A stretch of 64,000 nt of DNA from an uncultured Pseudoxanthomonas sp. (GTDB taxonomy: Bacteria; Pseudomonadota; Gammaproteobacteria; Xanthomonadales; Xanthomonadaceae). Shown here piece by piece: positions 6,116 to 31,016 of this stretch. The stretch covers positions 19,644 through 83,643 of the forward strand of contig NZ_CAMPJD010000013.1 in NCBI RefSeq assembly GCF_946886695.1. Direction: 5' to 3'. Position 1 is the stretch's first letter, and each line of letters opens with the position of its first letter. A program made the translations under genes and the position numbers. The notes below the pieces were generated by a model. It worked only from the letters and a program-made list of their open reading frames with translations. It had not been told where the DNA came from and ran no database searches.

Positions 6116-7462
6116 CTACCCTCCAAGTTCCGACACGGTGACACGCTGCTTGCCGCTGGGTGTCAGCGGGATCTCGTCCGTGAGGCGGAAGTTCAGGACG
6201 ACACTGTCGCCCACGACCTTGACCAGTTCGCTCCGCACCTGCTCGATGACGCCAGCGTCGAAGCCTGCGTCCGGCACGATCAGGATCTCGAACGCATCCA
6301 GTTGTTTCTGCACCACCTGGTAGCGGCGCACGCCGGTCGCCCCCAGGAAGGCATACACGATGTATTCGCCAGGCACGAACCGGCCATCGCGCGTGCGCAA
6401 TGCATCCAGCTTGCGTCCATCGACGCGCGCAAGCCTTGGCAGTCCGCGTCCGCACGCGCACTGACCGTGGCCGGGCGTGGCCAGGTCGCCATTGACATAC
6501 CGGAGCAGCGGCATGCCCAGGTTGTGCAGGTCGGTGACCACCAGTTCGCGCGGGCCTTCTCCGCCCACGCTTTCGCCATGGCCAAGCTCCACCTTCAGAT
6601 GGTCCGCGTTGACGTGCAGACCATCGCGGTGCTCGCATTCGGCGGCGATCAGCATGAATTCGCGGCAGCCGTAGGTGTTGTAGGCCGGCGCGCCGAAGGC
6701 CTGTTCGATGCGCGCGCGCTGCGTGTCATGCAGCGCCTCGGCGGCACCCAGGATCCGCAGCGGCGCATGCACCCGGCGACCGGTGGCGATCAGCCAGTCG
6801 GCCATCTCCACGATGGGCGCCACGTAGGACACGATGGTCTCGGGCTGGAAACGGTCGATCGCATCGGCGTACTCCGCCATGCGCGTGCGGTCCATTTCGA
6901 AGGCATTGAGCATGCGGCGGTTGAACGCCCCATGGAAAAGGAGGTCCTTGCGCTTCTGCGCGCCGAGCGGCGTGCCCCACAGGTAGAGGGAGCGCTGCCC
7001 CAGCCGGGCGCCGGCCCATCCGTAGCCACGCCACATGATCGCCACGCGACGTTCGTAACTGTCGCGGGTATAGCCGAACTTCAAGGGTTCGCCCGTCGAG
7101 CCGCCGGTGGTCTTGTAAAGCAGGCCGGCACGCTGCGGGCCGGCGATCAGGCGCTCGAAGTTGGCGCGGATCGTGGGCTTGTCCAGAACGGGCAGCCGGG
7201 CGTAGTGCGCGGGATCGCGGATGTCCTCCGGCGCGGCAATGCCAAGCCCGGCCCAGGTTTCCCGGTAATACGGCACGTGCTCCCAGCAATGGCGTAGCAG
7301 GGCCTGCAGCTTCTGCCATTGCAGCGCATCGATCTGCTCCGGCGCCAGCCATTGCTGCTGTTCGTACTCGCGCAGGTACGACAGTGTCTTGCGTCCGCGC
7401 AGGCCGGATTCGTACGCGGGGAAAAGCACGTGGCGGAACAGGGATTCGTAGAGACCCGTCAT
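6116..7462 (-). CDS. CapK/PaaK-like adenylate-forming enzyme
   Basis: This 448-residue protein starts at ATG 7462, overlapping the flippase stop in an ATGA junction. It belongs to the phenylacetate-CoA ligase/CapK group: YKTTGGSTGEPLKF is the AMP-binding P-loop, NTYGCREF the adenine-binding region, and VTDLHNLGMPLLRYVNGD the hinge-proximal region. A cysteine-containing CACGRGLP stretch resembles the zinc or structural motif seen in PaaK relatives. CapK-type proteins are common in capsule and EPS clusters and are thought to activate an acid that decorates the sugar, although the acid is usually unknown. Here it is one of two adenylate-forming enzymes in the locus, the other being at 27472. Confidence 0.82.
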   Translation of the reverse strand: MTGLYESLFRHVLFPAYESGLRGRKTLSYLREYEQQQWLAPEQIDALQWQKLQALLRHCWEHVPYYRETWAGLGIAAPEDIRDPAHYARLPVLDKPTIRANFERLIAGPQRAGLLYKTTGGSTGEPLKFGYTRDSYERRVAIMWRGYGWAGARLGQRSLYLWGTPLGAQKRKDLLFHGAFNRRMLNAFEMDRTRMAEYADAIDRFQPETIVSYVAPIVEMADWLIATGRRVHAPLRILGAAEALHDTQRARIEQAFGAPAYNTYGCREFMLIAAECEHRDGLHVNADHLKVELGHGESVGGEGPRELVVTDLHNLGMPLLRYVNGDLATPGHGQCACGRGLPRLARVDGRKLDALRTRDGRFVPGEYIVYAFLGATGVRRYQVVQKQLDAFEILIVPDAGFDAGVIEQVRSELVKVVGDSVVLNFRLTDEIPLTPSGKQRVTVSELGG

Positions 7463-12887: not shown

Positions 12888-14085
12888 TGTCTCCACCGCG
12901 CTGCAGGGGCGTGGCGTGGTCTATTTCGGCAACGACTGGAACGCGGAGAACCGGACCAGCAGCCATCACGTCGCCACGCGCCTGGCGGACCACATGCCGG
13001 TGCTCTATGTCGACTCCCCCGGCATGCGCGCACCGAACACCTCCGGGCGCGACCTCAAGCGTGCGTGGCGCAAGCTGGTTGCCGCGCTGAGGCCACCGGT
13101 GCCGATCCGCGCAGGCTTCTGGCATTGCACCGTGCCACAGCTGCCATTCCGGCGCATTCCCGGTGTGGAAGCCTTCAACCGGCTCTTCAGCCGCTGGGCC
13201 GTACGTCGCGCGCTGCGCAAGGTCGGCATCACCCGTTACCTGTCGTGGTTCGTCGTTCCCCACCCGGGCTTCCTCGCGCATCGCCTGGGCGAGGACTTCT
13301 GCGTGTACTACTGCATCGACGACTATGCGGCGCATCCCGGCGTGGATGCCGACCTGATCGGTCTTCGCGACGAAGCGCTCAGCCGCGAGGCCGACCAGCT
13401 GTTCGTCGCCCCCCCCTCGCTGTTGCCCCTCAAGCAAGCCCTCAATCCCACGGCCACGTACGCGCCGCACGGCGTCGATCTCGACCTGTTCCTCACTGCG
13501 CGCATGCCGGACACGCCCGTGGCGGAAGGCGCACGCGATCTGACGGGACCCGTGATCGGCTACATCGGCTCGATCCACGAATGGATCGACATCGAGCTGA
13601 TCGCGTGGCTGGCGCAACAGCGCCCGCAGTGGAGCTTCCTGCTGGTCGGCCACCCGGCCGTCGATGTGTCTTCGCTGCGTGCACTGCCCAATGTGCGGCT
13701 GGCCGGCCCCCAACCCTACCCCACGCTCCCGCAATGGGCGAAGGCGTTCGATGCCGCCATCATCCCGTACCGGATGAACCGCCAGGTCGCCAACGCCAAC
13801 CCGCTCAAGCTGCGCGAGTACCTGGCCACCGGCAAGCCCGTGGTGAGCACGTACAACCCCGAGATCGCCAAGTTCGCGCAGTGGGTCCGCATCGCGGAAG
13901 ACCACGCTGGTTTCCTCGCCGCGCTTGAACTGGCACTGGCCGACGACAGCCGCGAAGCCGCCGACGATCGCGTTGCGGCCGTTGCGTCCCAGACCTGGGA
14001 CCGCCGGGTCGAGGACGTGCTGGCCACCGTGACCCATGCGCTCGATCACCGACAACATACCTCCATGATGACCCCCGCCCCATGA
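12880..14085 (+). CDS. GT-B glycosyltransferase (TuaH/GT1-like)
   Basis: This 401-residue protein starts at ATG 12880, inside the end of the methyltransferase gene. The N-terminus GVVYFGNDWNAENRTSSHH is typical of the EPS glycosyltransferases related to TuaH and GumH-like enzymes. The middle has VYYCIDDYAAHPG and VAPPSLLPLK, and the C-terminal domain GPVIGYIGSIHEWID followed by NPLKLREYLATGKPVV, the donor-binding helix of GT-B folds. It is predicted to be a soluble, membrane-associated enzyme that adds a sugar in the cytoplasm. It is coupled to the next gene by an ATGA overlap at 14082-14085. Confidence 0.82.
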   Translation: MSDVSTALQGRGVVYFGNDWNAENRTSSHHVATRLADHMPVLYVDSPGMRAPNTSGRDLKRAWRKLVAALRPPVPIRAGFWHCTVPQLPFRRIPGVEAFNRLFSRWAVRRALRKVGITRYLSWFVVPHPGFLAHRLGEDFCVYYCIDDYAAHPGVDADLIGLRDEALSREADQLFVAPPSLLPLKQALNPTATYAPHGVDLDLFLTARMPDTPVAEGARDLTGPVIGYIGSIHEWIDIELIAWLAQQRPQWSFLLVGHPAVDVSSLRALPNVRLAGPQPYPTLPQWAKAFDAAIIPYRMNRQVANANPLKLREYLATGKPVVSTYNPEIAKFAQWVRIAEDHAGFLAALELALADDSREAADDRVAAVASQTWDRRVEDVLATVTHALDHRQHTSMMTPAP

Positions 14086-16142
14086 CCGTTCCCGCTTCCA
14101 CCCGCCTGCGCGTTGCCATCGTCGGTGCGGGCTATGTCGCCACCCACCACCTCGCCGCACTGGCCGAGCTGGATTTCGTCGACGTCGTCGGCATCTGCGA
14201 CCCGAACCTCACCGCGGCGCAGGCGCTGGCCGACCGCTTCAAGGTGCCGCGCGTCGCGGCTCACCTGGACGAACTCGCGGACCAGCATCCGCAGGCCGTG
14301 TATGTGCTCACACCGCCCGCGTTCCATGCCGCCATCGCCCTGCGGGCGATGGACATGGGCTGCCATGTGCTGGTGGAAAAGCCGATGGCCGATACCGTCG
14401 ACGATTGCGAGGCGATGATCGCCGCCGCACGCGCGCGCAAGCTGCAGCTCGGCGTGAACCATTCCGATCTTTTCGATCCCGTGCTCATGCAGGCCATGCA
14501 GGCCGTGCGCGACGGACGCATCGGCGACGTGGTGTCGGTGGAGATCGTGCGCAACTCGGAGTATCCACCGTATGCCGGTGGCCCGCTGCCGGGCTCGGTC
14601 ACCCAGGGCTCGTATCCGTTCCGTGACCTGGGCGTCCATGGCCTGTACACGCTGGAAGCCTTCCTTGGTCCGGTGCGCGAACTGCGCGTGGATTGCCAGG
14701 CCCGTGGCACCGACCCCAACCTGCACTTCGACGAATGGCAGGCGCACGCCGTGGCGCGCGATGGCGTGGGACGCCTGCTGCTGTCGTGGAACGCCCGGCC
14801 GATGGAGAACCGCGTGTTCGTGCGCGGCTCGCGCGGCACCATCGAAGTGGACCGCTTCCTGCAGACCTGCCGCATCCACCGGGTACTGCCTGGCCCGAAG
14901 TTCATCGGCATCGTGGTCAACGCCTTCGCCAGCGCATGCAAGGACGTGTTCCGCGTGCCATGGAACGTGGTGCGGTTCGCCACCGGCATGCTGAAGCCCT
15001 CACCCGGTATCCGGCGGGGCGCGGCGGAGTTCGCACGCGCCGCGCGCGACAACGCATCTCCGCCCTTCACTGGCGAGGACGCGTTGCGTATCGCGCAGTT
15101 GTTGGAACCGGTCTGTGCAGCCCCTGATGCGGAGCGCATCGCGCTGCTGGAATCGCGCTACGCCGCGCTTCCGCCGGCGGACGTACTGGTCACCGGTGCC
15201 GCGGGCTTCCTCGGCAAGCGCGTCGTCGCACGCCTGCGCGAACAGGGCAGGACGGTGCGCGTGCTGGTGCGTCGCCCTGTGGCGGCTTTCGCGCAGGACA
15301 AGGATATCCAGACCGTCATCGGCGACCTGGGCGACCCGCGCATCGTGCGCCATGCCGTCGACGGCGTGCCGCTGGTCTACCACGTGGGCGCTGCGATGCG
15401 TGGTGGACCGCGCGATTTCGAGGCCGGCACCGTCTGGGGCACGCGCAACATCGTCGATGCCTGTGTCGACGCTTCGGTGAAGCGGCTGGTGTACGTCAGC
15501 TCGATGAGCGTGTTCGACCATGCGGGACGCGACGTGAATGCGGTGATGACCGAAGCGTCGCCGCTGGAGCCGCATCCCGACTGGCGCGGTGCATACACCC
15601 AGACCAAGCTGTCGGCCGAGCGCATGGTGCTGGATGCGGTGGCGCAGCGGGGATTGCCTGCCATCGTCGTGCGTCCTGGCCAGATATTCGGGCCCGGCGC
15701 CGAGAAGGTCACCCCGAACGGCGTTATCGCCCTGGCCGGTCGCTGGGTCGCCGTCGGCGACGGCGCGCAGGCACTGCCGCTGGTGTACGTGGACGATGTG
15801 GTGGACGCGCTGCTGTGCGCGGCCGACGCACCGGCACCGGCGCGACCGCTGTTCAACGTGGTGGACACCTCGCACATCACCCAGGCCGACTACCTGGCCC
15901 GCTGCAAGCGGAAACTCGGCGACGAAGTTAAGGTCGTGCGGGTTCCGCGCTGGATGTTCATGACGCTGGGCTTCGGCGTGGAGCAGCTGGGCAGGATCCT
16001 GCGTCGCGACGTGCCGCTGACACGCTATCGCGTGCGCTCGCTGCGGCCACTGGCGAACTTCGACACCACGGCCGCGCGCACGGACCTGGGCTGGACACCG
16101 CGGGTGGGCGTGGAGAGAGGACTGGATGCGACGTTCGGGTGA
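14082..16142 (+). CDS. Bifunctional Gfo/Idh/MocA oxidoreductase - NAD-dependent epimerase/dehydratase fusion
   Basis: A 686-residue protein made of two complete Rossmann enzymes in one frame. Residues 9-355 form a Gfo/Idh/MocA oxidoreductase: VAIVGAGYVA binds NAD(P), and HVLVEKPM (95-102) carries the catalytic-site Lys. From about residue 365 an extended SDR domain starts with LVTGAAGFLGKR, has YVSSMSVFD, the YTQTK catalytic Tyr/Lys (about 505-509) and VVRPGQIFGPG. Known single-domain relatives oxidise and epimerise or dehydrate nucleotide sugars. The fusion suggests two consecutive steps in making one nucleotide sugar, such as a deoxy or keto sugar. Its neighbours are a glycosyltransferase (ATGA overlap) and a FemAB-type gene (17-base overlap). 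Confidence 0.85.
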   Translation: MTVPASTRLRVAIVGAGYVATHHLAALAELDFVDVVGICDPNLTAAQALADRFKVPRVAAHLDELADQHPQAVYVLTPPAFHAAIALRAMDMGCHVLVEKPMADTVDDCEAMIAAARARKLQLGVNHSDLFDPVLMQAMQAVRDGRIGDVVSVEIVRNSEYPPYAGGPLPGSVTQGSYPFRDLGVHGLYTLEAFLGPVRELRVDCQARGTDPNLHFDEWQAHAVARDGVGRLLLSWNARPMENRVFVRGSRGTIEVDRFLQTCRIHRVLPGPKFIGIVVNAFASACKDVFRVPWNVVRFATGMLKPSPGIRRGAAEFARAARDNASPPFTGEDALRIAQLLEPVCAAPDAERIALLESRYAALPPADVLVTGAAGFLGKRVVARLREQGRTVRVLVRRPVAAFAQDKDIQTVIGDLGDPRIVRHAVDGVPLVYHVGAAMRGGPRDFEAGTVWGTRNIVDACVDASVKRLVYVSSMSVFDHAGRDVNAVMTEASPLEPHPDWRGAYTQTKLSAERMVLDAVAQRGLPAIVVRPGQIFGPGAEKVTPNGVIALAGRWVAVGDGAQALPLVYVDDVVDALLCAADAPAPARPLFNVVDTSHITQADYLARCKRKLGDEVKVVRVPRWMFMTLGFGVEQLGRILRRDVPLTRYRVRSLRPLANFDTTAARTDLGWTPRVGVERGLDATFG

Positions 16143-22873: not shown

Positions 22874-24856
22874 ATGTGCGGAATCGCGGGTTTCATGGGT
22901 CCCGGCGTCGTCTCGACGGAGGCGCGGCCCTGGCTGGAGCGGATGATCCAGCCACTGGCGCATCGCGGCCCGGATGGTTTCGGTTTCCACGCCGCGCCGA
23001 GCATCGGACTGGCCCACGCGCGCCTGTCGATCATCGACCTGTCCACCGGCGACCAGCCCATCCACAACCCGCGCCGCACGGTGTGGACGGTGTTCAATGG
23101 CGAAATCTTCAATTTCGTAGAACTGCGCAGGATGCTGGAGGACAAGGGCCACGTCTTCTACACGCAGTCCGACACCGAGGTGATCGTGCATCTGTACGAC
23201 CGTTACGGCGAGGACTTCGTCCATCACCTCAACGGCCAGTTCGCCATCGCCCTGTGGGACAGCGAACGCCAGCGCCTGGTGCTGGCGCGCGACCGGGCCG
23301 GCATCCGTCCGCTGTACTACACCCGCCAGCGCGGTCGCCTGTGGTTCGCCTCCGAAGTGAAATCGCTGCTGGCCGTGCTGCCGGAATGTGCCCACCTCGA
23401 GCCGCAGGCGTTGCTGCAGACGCTGACCTACTGGGCACCGGTGGATCCGGAGACACTCTACCAGGGCGTGCAGAGCCTTCCGCCCGGCCATGTACTGACG
23501 GTGGAGCGCGACGGACGCCAGCACCTGCGCCGTTACTGGGACTGGACGTTCCCCGACGCGGAGGCGACATCGCCTTCACGGTACCCGCTCACGCTGGAGC
23601 AGGCCACGGCGGAGCTGCGCGAACTGCTGGTCGATGCGGTGCGTCTGCAGCTGCGTGCCGACGTTCCGGTGGGCGCCTACCTCAGCGGCGGCCTCGACTC
23701 GTCCGGCATCGTCGCCCTGATCCGCGGCTTCACCGACACGCCGGTACGCACGTTCTCGGTGGCGTTCGAGGATGGCGAGTTCGACGAAAGCGCGCACCAG
23801 CAGGCGATGGTGCGGCACCTGGGCACCGACCACACCACGCTGATGTGCACGCGTCGCGACATCGGCAATGCGTTTCCGCGCCTGATCCGCCACACGGAAA
23901 CACCCGTGCTGCGCACCGGGCCCGTCCCGTTGATGCTGCTGGCCGGCAGTGTGCGCCAGCACGGCTACAAGGTCGTGCTGACCGGCGAAGGCGCCGACGA
24001 AGTGTTCGGCGGCTACGACCTGTTCAAGGAAGCCAAGGTGCGACGCTTCTGGGCGCGCCAGCCCGGCTCGCGCCTGCGACCGCGCCTGCTGGAGAAGCTG
24101 TACGGCTACCTGCAGAACTCGCCGGTGAGCAGTCCGGCATTCGCGCAATCGTTCTTCGGCCAGGGCATGGAGCACCTGCACCGGCCGATCTTCGCGCACG
24201 TACCGCGCTGGACCACCTCGCAGCGCGCCTTCGCCTTCCTGTCGCCGGACCTGCGGACCACGGCCGCGCACTGGGACCCGCTGGAGGCCTACGAGCACAC
24301 GCTGCCGCCGGACATCGCGCGATGGAGCGATCTCTCGCGCGACCAGTACGTGGAAGCCAAGTCGCTGCTGGCCGGTTACCTGCTGTCGTCGCAGGGCGAC
24401 CGGGTGGCCATGGCGAACTCGATCGAAGGGCGTTTCCCCTACCTCGACCATCGCGTCATCGAGTTCGCCAACCGCCTGCCGCCCAGCTTCAAGATCCGCG
24501 GCATGACAGAAAAGTACCTGCTGCGGCGCGCCCTGGCGGAACTGCTGCCGCCGGATATCGTGCAGCGGACCAAGCAGCCGTACCGCGCACCGGACAGCCA
24601 GAGCTTCTTCTTCGACGGCAAGCCGCTGGACTACGTCGCCGACCTGCTGTCGCCCGACGCGATCCGCGATGCCGGCTATTTCGACCCCGCGCCGGTATCG
24701 CGGCTGGTGGAAAAGTGCCGGCTGGGACGGGCGACGGGCTTCGCCGACAACCAGGCGTTCGTGGGCATCCTTTCCACGATGCTGGTGCATCGGCAGACCG
24801 TCGAGGCGCGCCTGTCGCCCTCCCCGGCGGCACACCCTTCCGGTGCGGTCGCGTAG
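22874..24856 (+). CDS. Asparagine synthase-like glutamine amidotransferase (EPS-associated)
   Basis: A 660-residue class II amidotransferase. The Cys2 nucleophile (MCGIAGFM) and the conserved HRGPDG and NGEIFNF motifs define the glutaminase domain (about 1-210), and LSGGLDSSGIVAL (about 270-282) is the ATP-pyrophosphatase P-loop of the synthetase domain. Residues MANSIEGRFPYLD and YRAPDSQSFF are typical of the exosortase-associated EPS amidotransferases, which resemble AsnB but lie in polysaccharide clusters. It probably converts a carboxylate to an amide on a sugar, or makes free asparagine. A ribosome site AGGGGAAG lies ten bases upstream. The methyltransferase gene follows after 34 bases. 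Confidence 0.85.
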   Translation: MCGIAGFMGPGVVSTEARPWLERMIQPLAHRGPDGFGFHAAPSIGLAHARLSIIDLSTGDQPIHNPRRTVWTVFNGEIFNFVELRRMLEDKGHVFYTQSDTEVIVHLYDRYGEDFVHHLNGQFAIALWDSERQRLVLARDRAGIRPLYYTRQRGRLWFASEVKSLLAVLPECAHLEPQALLQTLTYWAPVDPETLYQGVQSLPPGHVLTVERDGRQHLRRYWDWTFPDAEATSPSRYPLTLEQATAELRELLVDAVRLQLRADVPVGAYLSGGLDSSGIVALIRGFTDTPVRTFSVAFEDGEFDESAHQQAMVRHLGTDHTTLMCTRRDIGNAFPRLIRHTETPVLRTGPVPLMLLAGSVRQHGYKVVLTGEGADEVFGGYDLFKEAKVRRFWARQPGSRLRPRLLEKLYGYLQNSPVSSPAFAQSFFGQGMEHLHRPIFAHVPRWTTSQRAFAFLSPDLRTTAAHWDPLEAYEHTLPPDIARWSDLSRDQYVEAKSLLAGYLLSSQGDRVAMANSIEGRFPYLDHRVIEFANRLPPSFKIRGMTEKYLLRRALAELLPPDIVQRTKQPYRAPDSQSFFFDGKPLDYVADLLSPDAIRDAGYFDPAPVSRLVEKCRLGRATGFADNQAFVGILSTMLVHRQTVEARLSPSPAAHPSGAVA

Positions 24857-27201: not shown

Positions 27202-27450
27202 ATGCCGCAGAAGCAGCAGATCAAAACCTTCATCCTGCAGAACTTTCTCTTCTCGGATGACCCTTCCGCCGTGGGCGATCAGGATTCGCTGATCCAAGGC
27301 GGCATCATCGACTCGACGGGGATCCACGAGCTGGTGTTCTTCCTGGAGGACGCGTTCAAGCTGCAGATCGCGGCGGAAGAGATGACACCCGCCAACTTCG
27401 ATTCCATCCAGACCGTCGACGCGTTCGTCTCGCGCAAGCTGGCCGGCTGA
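27202..27450 (+). CDS. Acyl carrier protein
   Basis: This 82-residue acidic protein has the four-helix acyl carrier layout and the attachment motif GGIIDSTGIHEL with Ser38 as the likely phosphopantetheine site (DS followed by T instead of the usual L). The second half contains FFLEDAFKLQIAAEEM, the recognition helix. It is not the fatty acid synthase AcpP, which lies in a fab operon in this family. GGGG lies seven bases upstream of ATG 27202. The next gene, 21 bases later, is an adenylating ligase, so the pair should load an acyl or aminoacyl group onto the carrier for transfer to the polymer. Confidence 0.85.
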   Translation: MPQKQQIKTFILQNFLFSDDPSAVGDQDSLIQGGIIDSTGIHELVFFLEDAFKLQIAAEEMTPANFDSIQTVDAFVSRKLAG

Positions 27451-27471
27451 CCCGTCGCGTACGCCGTCGCC

Positions 27472-28980
27472 ATGGAGCGCCTCGCCACCCGACTCGCGCG
27501 GATCGCACGTACCACGCCGCAACGCACCGCGATGGTGGAGGGCGAGCGCACGATCGACTACGGCACCTTCTGGTCGCAGGCCTCCGGCTTCGCGCACCAC
27601 CTGCGCCAGGCCGGCCTGCAGGCCGGCGAACGCGTGGCGCTGGTGCTTCCGAACAGGATCGAAGCCGCCGTGGCGCTGTATGGCATCTGGCTGGCCGGCG
27701 GCGCCGCCGCGCCACTGAATGCCCAGGCACGCTCGCGCGACTTCATGCCCTGGCTGCGCCACTGCGGTGCGCGCTTCGTGGTGTATGAAAGTGGGCATCG
27801 CGACATGGAGCAGACCTTCGCGCAATGGGAAGACGCAACTCCCGTGCCGCAGGCGATCGCGCTGGCGCTGGACGGTGGCCTGCCCGTGGTCGAGGGCGAC
27901 GACGACTGGCCACAGGACGCCGCCGACGACACGCTGGCACAACTGCTCTACACCTCGGGCACCACTGGTGAGCCCAAGGGCGTGATGCTGAGCCATGGCA
28001 ATCTCGCCGCCAATACCGATGCCGTCATCGCCTACCTGGACCTGACGCGCGACGACGTGATCGTGAGCGTGCTGCCGTTCTACTATGCCTACGGCGCATC
28101 GGTGCTGCATACCCACCTGGCCAGCGGTGCGTGCATCGTGCTTGGCCCGGGCATGGTCTTCCCGATCCAGGTGCTCGACGCGCTGCAGCGCCACCGCGCG
28201 ACCGGATTCTCCGGCGTTCCGTCCACCTATGTGCTGTTGATGGAGATGCTGGAGCGCCGTAGCCACGACCTGTCTTCGCTGCGTTACCTGACGCAGGCGG
28301 GAGGCGCGATGGCGCCCGTCGTGGCCGACCGTGTCCGCGCCGTGCTTCCGGATGCGCGCCTGTTCCTGATGTACGGCCAGACCGAAGCCACGTCGCGGAT
28401 CAGCTGGCTCCCGCCGGAACGGCTTGACGACAAGCGCGGCTCGGTCGGCATCCCGGTGCAGGATACGCAGTGGCGCATCCTGCGCGAGGACGGCAGCCCC
28501 GCCTCGACGGGCGAAGCAGGCGAAGTCTGCGTGCGTGGGCCCGGCATCATGCAGGGCTACTGGAACCATCCCGCCGGCACCGGGGCGGTCCTGCGCGATG
28601 GCTGGCTGCATACCGGTGATCTCGGCCATGTCGACGCCGACGGCTATCTGTTCCTGCAGGGCCGACGCAGCGACATGATCAAGACCGGTGCACACCGCGT
28701 GCACCCCAACGACGTGGAAGAAGTCATCGCAGAACTTGCCGGCATCCGCGAAGTGGCGGTGGTCGGCGTGGACGACGACACGCTGGGCCAGGTCATCAAG
28801 GCCTTCGTGGTGGCGGACGAATGCATCCCCCGTGCGGAAGACCGCATCAAGGCACACTGCCGTGCACGCCTGCCGGCCTACAAGATTCCCCGACACATCA
28901 CCTTCGTCGAAGCCCTGCCGCGGACTGCATCCGGCAAGGTCAGACGCGTCCAACTGACGGAGCAGACCACCACGCCATGA
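27472..28980 (+). CDS. AMP-dependent acyl-CoA/acyl-ACP ligase
   Basis: A 502-residue adenylate-forming enzyme of the ANL superfamily. LLYTSGTTGEPKGVMLSHGN (about 158-177) is the P-loop (A3), MYGQTEATSRIS the A5 motif, GWLHTGDLG the A7 motif and RTASGKVRRV the A10 motif with the catalytic Lys near the C-terminus. It resembles the exosortase-associated AMP ligases of EPS operons. With the carrier protein directly upstream it most likely adenylates a fatty, hydroxy or amino acid and loads it onto the carrier. The acid cannot be read from the sequence. The NadE-like gene overlaps its stop (ATGA). Confidence 0.88.
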   Translation: MERLATRLARIARTTPQRTAMVEGERTIDYGTFWSQASGFAHHLRQAGLQAGERVALVLPNRIEAAVALYGIWLAGGAAAPLNAQARSRDFMPWLRHCGARFVVYESGHRDMEQTFAQWEDATPVPQAIALALDGGLPVVEGDDDWPQDAADDTLAQLLYTSGTTGEPKGVMLSHGNLAANTDAVIAYLDLTRDDVIVSVLPFYYAYGASVLHTHLASGACIVLGPGMVFPIQVLDALQRHRATGFSGVPSTYVLLMEMLERRSHDLSSLRYLTQAGGAMAPVVADRVRAVLPDARLFLMYGQTEATSRISWLPPERLDDKRGSVGIPVQDTQWRILREDGSPASTGEAGEVCVRGPGIMQGYWNHPAGTGAVLRDGWLHTGDLGHVDADGYLFLQGRRSDMIKTGAHRVHPNDVEEVIAELAGIREVAVVGVDDDTLGQVIKAFVVADECIPRAEDRIKAHCRARLPAYKIPRHITFVEALPRTASGKVRRVQLTEQTTTP

Positions 28981-29957
28981 GCCAGCTCGATCACCATGTC
29001 CTCGACATCGACTACCAGAGCGAAGCCGACCGCATCGCCGCACGCCTGCGCGAGATCACTGCGCGCCAGTTGCACAGACGCGGCCTGGTGGTCGCGATTT
29101 CGGGCGGCATCGACAGCTCCGTCAGCGCCGCGCTGGCTGTGCGCGCCCTGGGGCCGGATCGCGTCTTCACGCTGATCCTGCCCGAGCGTGACTCCTCCGA
29201 CGACAGCGCCGCGCGCGCGCACATCCTCGCCGAACACCTGGGCGTGCGGACCGAGACGGTGGACATCGCGCCCGCGCTGGCGGCGATCGGCTGCTACCGC
29301 GCCCGCGACGAGGCCGTGCGCAACACGCTGCCCGAGTATGCCGAAGGCTGGAAGTTCAAGATCGTCATCGACGGCGGCACCGAAGGCCGCATCAACCGTT
29401 TCCGCATGGTGGCGCAGTCGCCGGACAGCGTATTGCACGAACGCGACCTCGCCCTGGCCGACTACCTGACCATCGTCGCCGCCACCAACTTCAAGCAGCG
29501 CATCCGCAAGACCCTGGAGTATTTCCATGCCGACCGCCTCAACTACGGCGTGGTCGGCACGCCCAACCGCGTGGAGTACGACCAGGGATTCTTCGTCAAG
29601 AACGGCGACGGCTCGGCGGACGTGAAACCGATCGCGCACCTCTACAAATCGCAGGTGTACGGCATGGCGCGCCACCTCGGCCTGCCCGAGCGCGTCTGCG
29701 CCGCCATACCGACCACGGACACCTACAGCCTGAGTCAGGGCCAGGACGAGTTCTACTTCGCCCTGCCCTACCAGCAGATGGACCTCGCGTTGTGGGCCCT
29801 CAACCATGACAGGCCGGCGGGCGAACTCGCCATCGCGCTGGGCATCACACCGGCGCAGGCGCAGGCCGTCTACGACGACATCCGCAACAAACGCCGCACC
29901 ACGCAGTACCTGCACATGGCGCCCGTGCTCGCTGGCGATGTCCCGGAGCTCGGCTGA
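28977..29957 (+). CDS. NadE-like ammonia-dependent ATP-pyrophosphatase ligase
   Basis: The protein has 326 residues from ATG 28977, which overlaps the ligase stop. ISGGIDSSVSAAL (41-53) is the pyrophosphatase P-loop, and NYGVVGTPNRVEYDQGFFVKNGDG with KPIAHLYKSQVYGMAR matches the synthetase domain of NAD synthases. There is no N-terminal glutaminase domain, so ammonia must come from elsewhere. The family makes NAD from deamido-NAD, but this copy lies inside an EPS tailoring operon, and the stretch SLSQGQDEFYFALPY differs from the usual NadE text, so I infer it amidates a different substrate. Being the genome's only NAD synthase cannot be excluded. Confidence 0.78.
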   Translation: MSQLDHHVLDIDYQSEADRIAARLREITARQLHRRGLVVAISGGIDSSVSAALAVRALGPDRVFTLILPERDSSDDSAARAHILAEHLGVRTETVDIAPALAAIGCYRARDEAVRNTLPEYAEGWKFKIVIDGGTEGRINRFRMVAQSPDSVLHERDLALADYLTIVAATNFKQRIRKTLEYFHADRLNYGVVGTPNRVEYDQGFFVKNGDGSADVKPIAHLYKSQVYGMARHLGLPERVCAAIPTTDTYSLSQGQDEFYFALPYQQMDLALWALNHDRPAGELAIALGITPAQAQAVYDDIRNKRRTTQYLHMAPVLAGDVPELG

Positions 29958-29960
29958 CCG

Positions 29961-31016
29961 ATGAACGCGGCGCCTCCCGCCCCGCAGTATCTCGTGCAGG
30001 CCGGTCGCCCGGCGCACGACCGCGCCACGGTGCTCGGCCTGTGGCGGGGCAACCTGGGCCAGGATGCCCGGATGACCGCGAAGTACGAGTGGTTCTACCT
30101 GCGCTGCCCGCATGGCGAGCCGCTGCTGCAGTTGCTGCTCGATGTCCCGACGCAGGCGCACGTGGGCACGGCATCCGCAGGCAGGCGCCGCCTCGTATGG
30201 CAGGGGCGGGAACTGCGTGGGGGCGTGCTCGTGGACCTCGCCGTGCTGCCCCAGCATCGTTCACTGGGGCCTGCACTGATGTTGCAGCAGGGATTGATCG
30301 CGGCTGCGGGTGAAGCGCTCGATGTTCTCTACGGCTTCCCGAATCCCAAGGCCGCCCCGGTGTTCAAGCGGATCGGGTACGCCCAGTCCGCGCATCTGGT
30401 GCGCTACGCACGCGTGCTGCGCCACGCCCACTATCTTCGCAGCCGTCTGCCAGGCTGGCTCGCGTCGCCCGCAGGCTGGGCCGCCGACAGGGTGGTCGCA
30501 CTTCGCGATGCATGGTCGCGCCTGCGCGGCCCGGCGTTGCGCTCGGCATGGACGGACCAGGCCGACGCCCGCATCGATGCCGTCTGGGCGGATTCCCACA
30601 AGGGCGACGATGTCATGGCGGTACGCGATGTCGGCCATCTGCGCTGGCGCTTCGACGAGTCTCCGCTGGCGACCACCCGCTATCTGCTGGTGAAGCGCGC
30701 ACGCGACCGTGCCCTGCAAGCCTGGTTCGCCGTGCAGCGCATCGAGGGCACGCTGCACGTGCGCGACTTCTGGTCCCTCGACGGCGCCAACGGCATGGCG
30801 GCCATGCACGTGGGCGAGCTGCTTCGTGCCGCGCGTAAGCTGGGCTGCGCGGCTGTCTCGGTGGAGATGTGCACCTCGGACGCGCAACGCGCGGGATGGC
30901 AGGCGCTGCATTTCGTCGAGCGCGGACGGAGACCGGTGTTCACGCGCTGGAGTTCGTCAGGCGAACCGGCAGCCGCCGCGTCGCTGTTCCTGACCTCGGC
31001 GGACGAAGACGAATAA
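29961..31016 (+). CDS. GNAT-family acyltransferase-like protein
   Basis: This 351-residue protein begins three bases after the NadE-like gene and closes the carrier protein operon. Two GNAT-like halves can be seen: LVDLAVLPQHRSLGPALMLQQ is the acyl-CoA or carrier-binding beta4-alpha3 region of the first, and WALK-like segments with ELLRAARKLGCAAVSVEM the second. The region PNPKAAPVFKRIGY is typical of EPS-cluster GNAT proteins. Double-GNAT proteins transfer acyl or aminoacyl groups, and the location suggests that it takes the group from the carrier protein and places it on the sugar. No signal peptide or membrane span is visible. Confidence 0.72.
   Translation: MNAAPPAPQYLVQAGRPAHDRATVLGLWRGNLGQDARMTAKYEWFYLRCPHGEPLLQLLLDVPTQAHVGTASAGRRRLVWQGRELRGGVLVDLAVLPQHRSLGPALMLQQGLIAAAGEALDVLYGFPNPKAAPVFKRIGYAQSAHLVRYARVLRHAHYLRSRLPGWLASPAGWAADRVVALRDAWSRLRGPALRSAWTDQADARIDAVWADSHKGDDVMAVRDVGHLRWRFDESPLATTRYLLVKRARDRALQAWFAVQRIEGTLHVRDFWSLDGANGMAAMHVGELLRAARKLGCAAVSVEMCTSDAQRAGWQALHFVERGRRPVFTRWSSSGEPAAAASLFLTSADEDE

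Follow-up and report, generated by a model that had tools for sequence, protein, structure and literature searches.

A candidate carrier-protein module with a NadE-derived ligase in a Pseudoxanthomonas exopolysaccharide locus and on rhizobial plasmids

Stand-alone carrier proteins that work together with a ligase and a transferase are known from the butirosin (BtrI/BtrJ) and DltA/DltC systems, and the gene module described here follows the same carrier-tailoring logic. BtrJ belongs to another ligase class, and we know of no NadE-type ligase in either system. A second group of described relatives is formed by the accessory enzymes of XrtA/PEP-CTERM exopolysaccharide (EPS) loci, i.e., the ligase TIGR03098, the amidotransferase TIGR03108, and the decarboxylase TIGR03099, whose definitions, to our knowledge, do not include NadE. 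We compared these systems with an operon found in a stretch of 64,000 nucleotides from an uncultured Pseudoxanthomonas sp. (contig NZ_CAMPJD010000013.1, positions 19,644 to 83,643), hereafter the window, which codes for an acyl carrier protein (ACP), an AMP ligase, a NadE-like ligase, and a GNAT-like protein, with an AsnB-like gene nearby. The best reading of our data is that this operon together with AsnB exemplifies a transferable carrier-protein module, with the NadE-derived ligase as its signature. The genes in the window are as follows.

22874..24856, plus strand: AsnB-like glutamine amidotransferase/synthetase, matching TIGR01536; a module member, apart from the operon in the window
27202..27450, plus strand: stand-alone carrier protein (type II peptidyl or acyl carrier protein-like), 82 aa, with the phosphopantetheine site at Ser38
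27472..28980, plus strand: adenylate-forming AMP ligase, probably an ACP synthetase, 502 aa, PF00501
28977..29957, plus strand: NadE-like ammonia-dependent ligase, 326 aa, NF002048, with an insert at about residues 107 to 160
29961..31016, plus strand: tandem-GNAT-fold protein (AlphaFold model), probable acyltransferase, 351 aa; an optional member

The ligase and AsnB belong to the same superfamilies as the XrtA/PEP-CTERM accessory enzymes, a sugar transferase of the window scores above the XrtA model TIGR03013 (528 bits, cut-off of 393), and one related locus, L037, has a TIGR03099 match within 4 kb of the NadE-like gene. The module differs in that both enzymes fall far below the cut-offs of the accessory models (360 bits versus 592 for the ligase with TIGR03098, and 440.7 versus 816.9 for AsnB with TIGR03108) and in the absence of an exosortase match. 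The exosortase model TIGR02602 had matches in 3 of the 18 genomes searched, with none in the module carriers G001, G002, G003, G005, G006, G009, G012, G020, G021, G023, G027, and G031. This set of exosortase-less genomes contrasts with the XrtA-type EPS enzymes present in the window and in L037. Described EPS and floc clusters were also considered as examples of the set and rejected, as the term "carrier protein" appears in none of the main texts of PMC9850573, PMC9012009, PMC3684757, and PMC4784049; asparagine synthases are named in three of the four, and the available parts of their cluster descriptions contain no NAD synthase.

The linkage of the module genes is not due to chance. Our first sample, the best 80 of 457 relatives of the NadE-like gene, leans to Xanthomonadales, and neighbors were scored by tblastn (bit thresholds of 50 to 200) within 6.5 kb of the NadE-like gene. 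An ACP was found in 73 of these 80 loci, a ligase in 71, AsnB in 60, a GNAT protein in 67, and a HemK/PrmC-type methyltransferase (HemK) in 21; the seven loci without an ACP have no more than 2.2 kb of DNA upstream. A less biased sample was taken from the genomes with NF002048 over its cut-off, 17 of 369 in the class and 12 of 299 in the phylum, which amount to 27 genomes, as two were common to both draws (two of the 27, G001 and G669, are of one genus). In these loci, covering up to 8 kb on each side of the NadE-like gene, the ACP is present in 27/27, always on the same strand, the ligase in 24/27, AsnB in 24/27 (one of the misses, L135, is on a short contig), and HemK in 7/27, while GNAT was detected in 4/27 with a first profile and in 7/27 after adding a second one. 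We consider the linkage established because the ACP, ligase, and AsnB lie within 6.5 kb at these frequencies, whereas none of 18 canonical NAD-synthase loci from module-carrying genomes has any of the partner genes. One locus, L145 (genome G173, contig C8), was left out of the 27 for being below the NF002048 cut-off and interrupted by an internal stop; it has no module partner within 8 kb and is a relic.

Gene order was surveyed in 111 loci (the 80, the 27, and four plasmid loci). The most frequent arrangement was AsnB-ACP-ligase-NadE-GNAT (30 loci), followed by the same order without GNAT (14), AsnB-ACP-ligase-HemK-NadE-GNAT (11), ACP-ligase-NadE-GNAT (10), AsnB-ACP-HemK-NadE-GNAT (6), GNATa-AsnB-ACP-ligase-NadE (5), GNAT-AsnB-ligase-ACP-NadE (4), and NadE-AsnB-ligase-ACP with HemK reversed (4), and further orders also occur. 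The order is shuffled while the content is kept, which speaks for function. The strictest pair is formed by the NadE-like protein and the ACP (27/27 genomes; 73/80 contig loci), which persist together without the ligase in L134 and L136 and without both the ligase and AsnB in L141, and mainly for this reason we would place the NadE step on the carrier.

An earlier reading of this DNA, made by a model from the sequence alone, had described four packed genes, ACP, ligase, NadE, and a double GNAT, with AsnB as a nearby partner. The open reading frame coordinates agree with the packing (spacing of 21, -4, and 3 bases along the operon), and the genes do co-occur across genomes; a lack of such co-occurrence in relatives was one of the two refuting outcomes named in that reading. 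The four genes as a natural unit were rejected, as the conserved set is AsnB-ACP-ligase-NadE; AsnB is a full member and the tandem GNAT is optional.

The NadE-like protein scores 466 bits with NF002048 (cut-off of 313), and both the NAD-synthase fold and the PP-loop SGGxDS are present, features common to NH3-dependent NAD synthetases and nicotinamide mononucleotide (NMN) synthetases. A glutaminase domain, whose absence the sequence-only reading had noted, was indeed not found in the NCBIfam and Pfam scan. The family differs from the NAD/NMN synthetases in a conserved, family-specific insert of about 50 residues (approximately 107 to 160), in a loop with DEFYFA in place of the DEDELG of 2e18, in its paralogue status, and in its module context. 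Tyr260 is invariant in the family, and the aligned canonical examples differ there, often with an acidic residue. The insert and the altered loop suggest an acceptor other than nicotinic acid adenine dinucleotide or nicotinic acid mononucleotide. The possibility that this gene is the only NAD synthase of the cell, which the earlier reading had named as grounds for giving up its proposal, was rejected, since a separate canonical synthase was found in 36/36 genomes checked and in 26/26 further genomes (24 of them over the NF010588 cut-off). In the 120 homologues listed of 8000 scored, PF02540 was accompanied often by PF00733 and once by PF03054, and fusions to a carrier or AMP-binding domain were not seen. 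If the module reading is true, many proteins that now bear the name NAD(+) synthase would have no part in NAD metabolism and would instead be enzymes of a biosynthetic module that has yet to be characterised.

The window carrier protein matches NF052616 (61 bits) and NF058660 (45 bits), in each case below the cut-off, and the nearest solved chains are carrier proteins (2my5, 5jdx, PigG 7thn, DltC 6bug, and PltL 2n5h); the phosphopantetheine Ser38, in a DS motif, is a serine in 101/101 alignment rows. The ligase contains the AMP-binding domains PF00501 (287 bits) and PF13193, the lysine of its C-terminal motif (Lys489) is kept in 95/95 rows, and it is probably an acyl-carrier-protein synthetase. 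AsnB scores 502 bits with TIGR01536 (cut-off of 267), with Cys2 in 55 of 56 rows (a further 27 are gapped at this position) and the PP-loop SGGLDSS in 77/83; it adjoins the ACP in many other lineages.

The tandem-GNAT protein had no Pfam or NCBIfam match at an E value of 0.001, and its sequence gave only two chance-level matches to solved structures. Its AlphaFold model (pLDDT of 94.4, 38 sequences) best matches 2hv2 (E value of 5.8e-16), 2i00, 3n7z, and N-myristoyltransferases over 330 to 400 columns, as well as 2wpw, titled a tandem GNAT, from clavulanic acid synthesis. We take 2hv2, 2i00, and 3n7z to have two GNAT domains each. By this model match over nearly the whole length, the protein consists of two GNAT domains, so the "double GNAT" of the earlier reading holds, and it is a probable acyltransferase. 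In domain 1, the family alignment has the motif R100-x-x-G103-x-A105, with R100 and A105 invariant and G103 nearly so, which resembles the GNAT pantetheine motif; by eye, it was not seen in the alphaproteobacterial GNAT relatives. The C termini of the family share an acidic tail, which reads LTSADEDE in many of them; its D348 never varies, and T345 and D350 hardly do.

The closest described counterpart is found in Sinorhizobium meliloti, where strains GR4 and 1021 carry the AsnB-ACP-ligase-NadE set. The GR4 copies are 51% (AsnB), 44% (ACP), 35% (ligase), and 54% (NadE) identical to the window proteins, and the ACP has one match on pSymB of strain 1021 (NC_003078) at an E value of 0.01, inside the set. 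The module very likely includes the ligase SMb20650 and the ACP SMb20651, an identity assigned by us because the 1021 record used has no locus tags. According to the available text of PMC7232532, SMb20650 is co-transcribed with SMb20651, acylates it in Escherichia coli, and cannot stand in for FadD. PMC5686131, as far as its text is available, states that more work is needed on what SMb20651 and another ACP do, smb20650 is listed among the genes down-regulated under Myxococcus attack (PMC10315480), and no function is added by the accessible portions of PMC9386255, PMC12794305, and PMC10315480. The two loci share the whole set, including the ligase and ACP pair; they differ in that neither an EPS locus nor a GNAT gene was found beside the S. 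meliloti set in about 19 kb, and in strain ml21 the matching stretch of 20 kb has no glycosyltransferase among its 19 annotated features. In this last record (CP140937, L179), AsnB matches in two reading frames with no AsnB gene annotated, so it may be interrupted. The earlier statement that no pathway with this exact set is described holds in part: we found no description of the whole set in the literature, where most subscription papers were outside coverage, but SMb20650 and SMb20651 are very probably part of it. The module provides the orphan ACP SMb20651 with candidate partners.

The module also travels outside Gammaproteobacteria. Eight of the 27 genomes belong to another class, taken as Alphaproteobacteria since the NadE-like protein of one of them, L149, is 70 to 76% identical to plasmid proteins nearly all from Rhizobiaceae and kin. 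With this protein as the query (tblastn, E value of 1e-40), 117 of 72,556 plasmid records matched, from Sinorhizobium (76), Azospirillum (12), Ensifer (9), Shinella (8), Mesorhizobium (8), and others (4). Three annotated plasmid records share the order hypothetical protein-AsnB-ACP-ligase-NadE, in which the hypothetical protein shows remote homology to the window GNAT (HHalign probability of 95 and E value of 2e-8 for one comparison). The Shinella PSBB067 cassette has a single glycosyltransferase nearby, at the border of the annotated stretch, that of Roseateles XES5 (a record marked UNVERIFIED_ORG, with a doubtful organism name) has two upstream, and that of Nitratireductor rhodophyticola has none in the annotated stretch. 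In the Nitratireductor record NZ_CP139721 (L177), Tni-type transposition genes precede the cassette on the plasmid, in line with horizontal transfer. By eye, no EPS genes were recognized around the module in L149, L151, and L154, and in L146 an 871-aa AMP-binding/thioesterase protein adjoins it. The idea of an EPS-specific module was not upheld, as the annotated plasmid cassettes and the S. meliloti loci lie outside any large EPS cluster. Of the link to a polymer proposed earlier, what stands is that the window is an EPS locus and a glycan acceptor is possible, also on the plasmids, as glycosyltransferases adjoin two of the three annotated cassettes; what does not is its generality, as the plasmid modules have no, one, or two glycosyltransferase genes beside them. 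The module thus connects gammaproteobacterial EPS loci with a rhizobial plasmid cassette.

In the pathway that we propose, the AMP ligase would activate a carboxylic acid and load it as a thioester on the carrier, as reported in the available text for the S. meliloti homologues (PMC7232532). The NadE-like enzyme would adenylate another carboxylate of the carrier-bound acid, and attack by ammonia would produce a carboxamide, with AsnB performing a second, glutamine-driven amidation or supplying the ammonia. In some lineages, the window's not among them, a HemK/PrmC-type enzyme might, judging from its family, methylate the amide nitrogen. The tandem GNAT, or a substitute acyltransferase, would then take the amidated acyl group off the carrier and pass it to an amine or hydroxyl, and the location of the window genes suggests an EPS sugar as the most likely acceptor. 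The loading step is proposed because of the published work on the probable homologues SMb20650 and SMb20651, and amide formation because of the chemistry of the NadE family and the HemK partner. We give this scheme an even chance of being correct.

The recurrence of a HemK/PrmC-type amide-methyltransferase gene in part of the modules speaks for the earlier idea of an amide. This PrmC-like gene is upstream of the NadE-like gene in some loci and absent from the window module; in L146, L147, L150, and L152 it adjoins the ACP on the opposite strand. It appears to be a paralogue. In 18 genomes, all 11 with a module HemK have three HemK-family genes and all 7 without it have two (the module HemK's own match is of 186 to 214 bits, in G022 split in two), and all 7 HemK-carrying genomes of the 27 have another TIGR03534 match over the cut-off elsewhere, partial in G223. 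The NPPY motif is kept in 18/28 proteins and is APPY or IPPY in 10/28, with one further fragment lacking it. The paralogues of L040, L042, L049 to L052, L057, L069, L079, and L080 have lost the NPPY Asn and are still in the operon; amide methylation by this branch is doubtful.

The presence of HemK goes together with a ligase subtype. At a position that we take to align with the A-domain Asp anchoring the substrate amino group, 23 of 92 ligases have Asp, and the window ligase has Ala. HemK is present at 20/23 loci with an Asp-type ligase versus 1/69 others (P = 4e-16, with kinship ignored), and the Asp-type ligases form five groups on a midpoint-rooted tree, four of them with HemK. The exceptions are L045 (where an Asp-type ligase is present as well), L065, L130, and L144, together with S. 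meliloti, which is outside the count. In L044 and L056 the aligned ligase is coded on the other strand, at a distance of about 9 and 6 kb, respectively, and of the seven HemK loci outside the ligase alignment, six have no nearby ligase and L132 is of the Asp type. We tentatively extend the scheme to a transferable pathway in which the carrier-tethered acid would be amidated, N-methylated in some lineages by a HemK paralogue derived from translation, and passed on by acyl transfer, with Asp-type ligases loading an Asp/Glu-type acid and the Ala type of the window a non-amino acid. If true, this pathway would explain the orphan ACP SMb20651.

Several points weigh against the proposed pathway. Action of NadE on a carrier-bound rather than a free acid is at most suggested by the co-occurrence, and transfer to a sugar at most by the location. 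Two amide-forming enzymes in one module appear redundant. AsnB is absent from 20/80 loci, several of them with 10 kb of DNA upstream, GNAT is missing in 20/27 genomes, and HemK is absent from 59/80 and 20/27 modules, including that of the window, with 10/28 HemK-like proteins lacking the Asn of NPPY. Last, S. meliloti has the HemK-associated ligase motif, yet neither HemK nor GNAT is present in the 19 kb read.

Among the alternatives, the one that survives best, and which we regard as possible if rather improbable, is that free acids or uronic-acid sugars of the polysaccharide are what the NadE-like enzyme and AsnB amidate, and that the ACP, ligase, and GNAT serve to build an acyl substituent of its own; the genes would then share a locus because their products all decorate one polymer. 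This would agree with the EPS locus of the window, with the one or two glycosyltransferase genes near two of the three annotated plasmid cassettes, and with the AsnB-type enzymes of XrtA-type EPS loci (TIGR03108), as in Rubrivivax psc1, where the available table names several asparagine synthases and the text does not contain the term "carrier protein." Nevertheless, the set stays together without a visible EPS cluster, and the NadE-like protein is linked more tightly to the ACP than to AsnB. An unlikely alternative is that the NadE-like enzyme is a condensing ligase that couples the activated acid not to ammonia but to some other amine, such as an amino sugar or amino acid. The conserved insert would suit such a role, and lactam- or isopeptide-forming AsnB relatives match the module AsnB below cut-off, but a primary amide agrees better with the recurrence of a HemK-type partner, and ammonia is the established substrate of canonical NadE enzymes.

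We find it quite improbable that the product of the module is a small amide, secreted or serving in osmoprotection, like that of the N-acetylglutaminylglutamine amide pathway, with an incidental EPS location in Xanthomonadales. Stand-alone plasmid cassettes and the S. meliloti locus, with no glycosyltransferases in 20 kb annotated, point in this direction, as does the similarity of AsnB to the AsnO of that pathway (TIGR03104; 362 and 381 bits), but these scores are below the cut-off of 570, and many of the best 80 of 457 loci lie among EPS genes common with the window. It is very improbable that the NadE-like gene codes for an NAD or NMN synthase, ordinary or alternative, and is a neighbor by chance: every genome checked has a canonical synthase; the ACP, ligase, and AsnB genes accompany the NadE-like gene but are found at 0/18 canonical loci; and the family has its own insert and the invariant Tyr260.

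The EPS locus around the module codes for glycosyltransferases, flippase-like and Wzy-like proteins, and polysaccharide deacetylases (NCBIfam/Pfam), and is bordered at its end by csrA-, alaS-, and recA-like genes, recognized by eye. Its closest relatives are other Pseudoxanthomonas loci, with 96% identity in the NadE-like protein. Between AsnB and the ACP there are a methyltransferase-domain gene and one antiparallel gene (25846 to approximately 27100, minus strand), glucose/sorbosone-dehydrogenase-like, which is elsewhere in position in related loci and whose homologue in L002 has a match, below the cut-off, to the PQQ-dehydrogenase model TIGR03606. A second adenylate-forming enzyme, PaaK-like and below all cut-offs, is coded at 6116 to 7462 on the minus strand, and the region from 14082 to 16142 contains a 686-aa fusion of a Gfo/Idh/MocA dehydrogenase and an epimerase-type short-chain dehydrogenase/reductase, followed by two PF13480 acetyltransferase genes.

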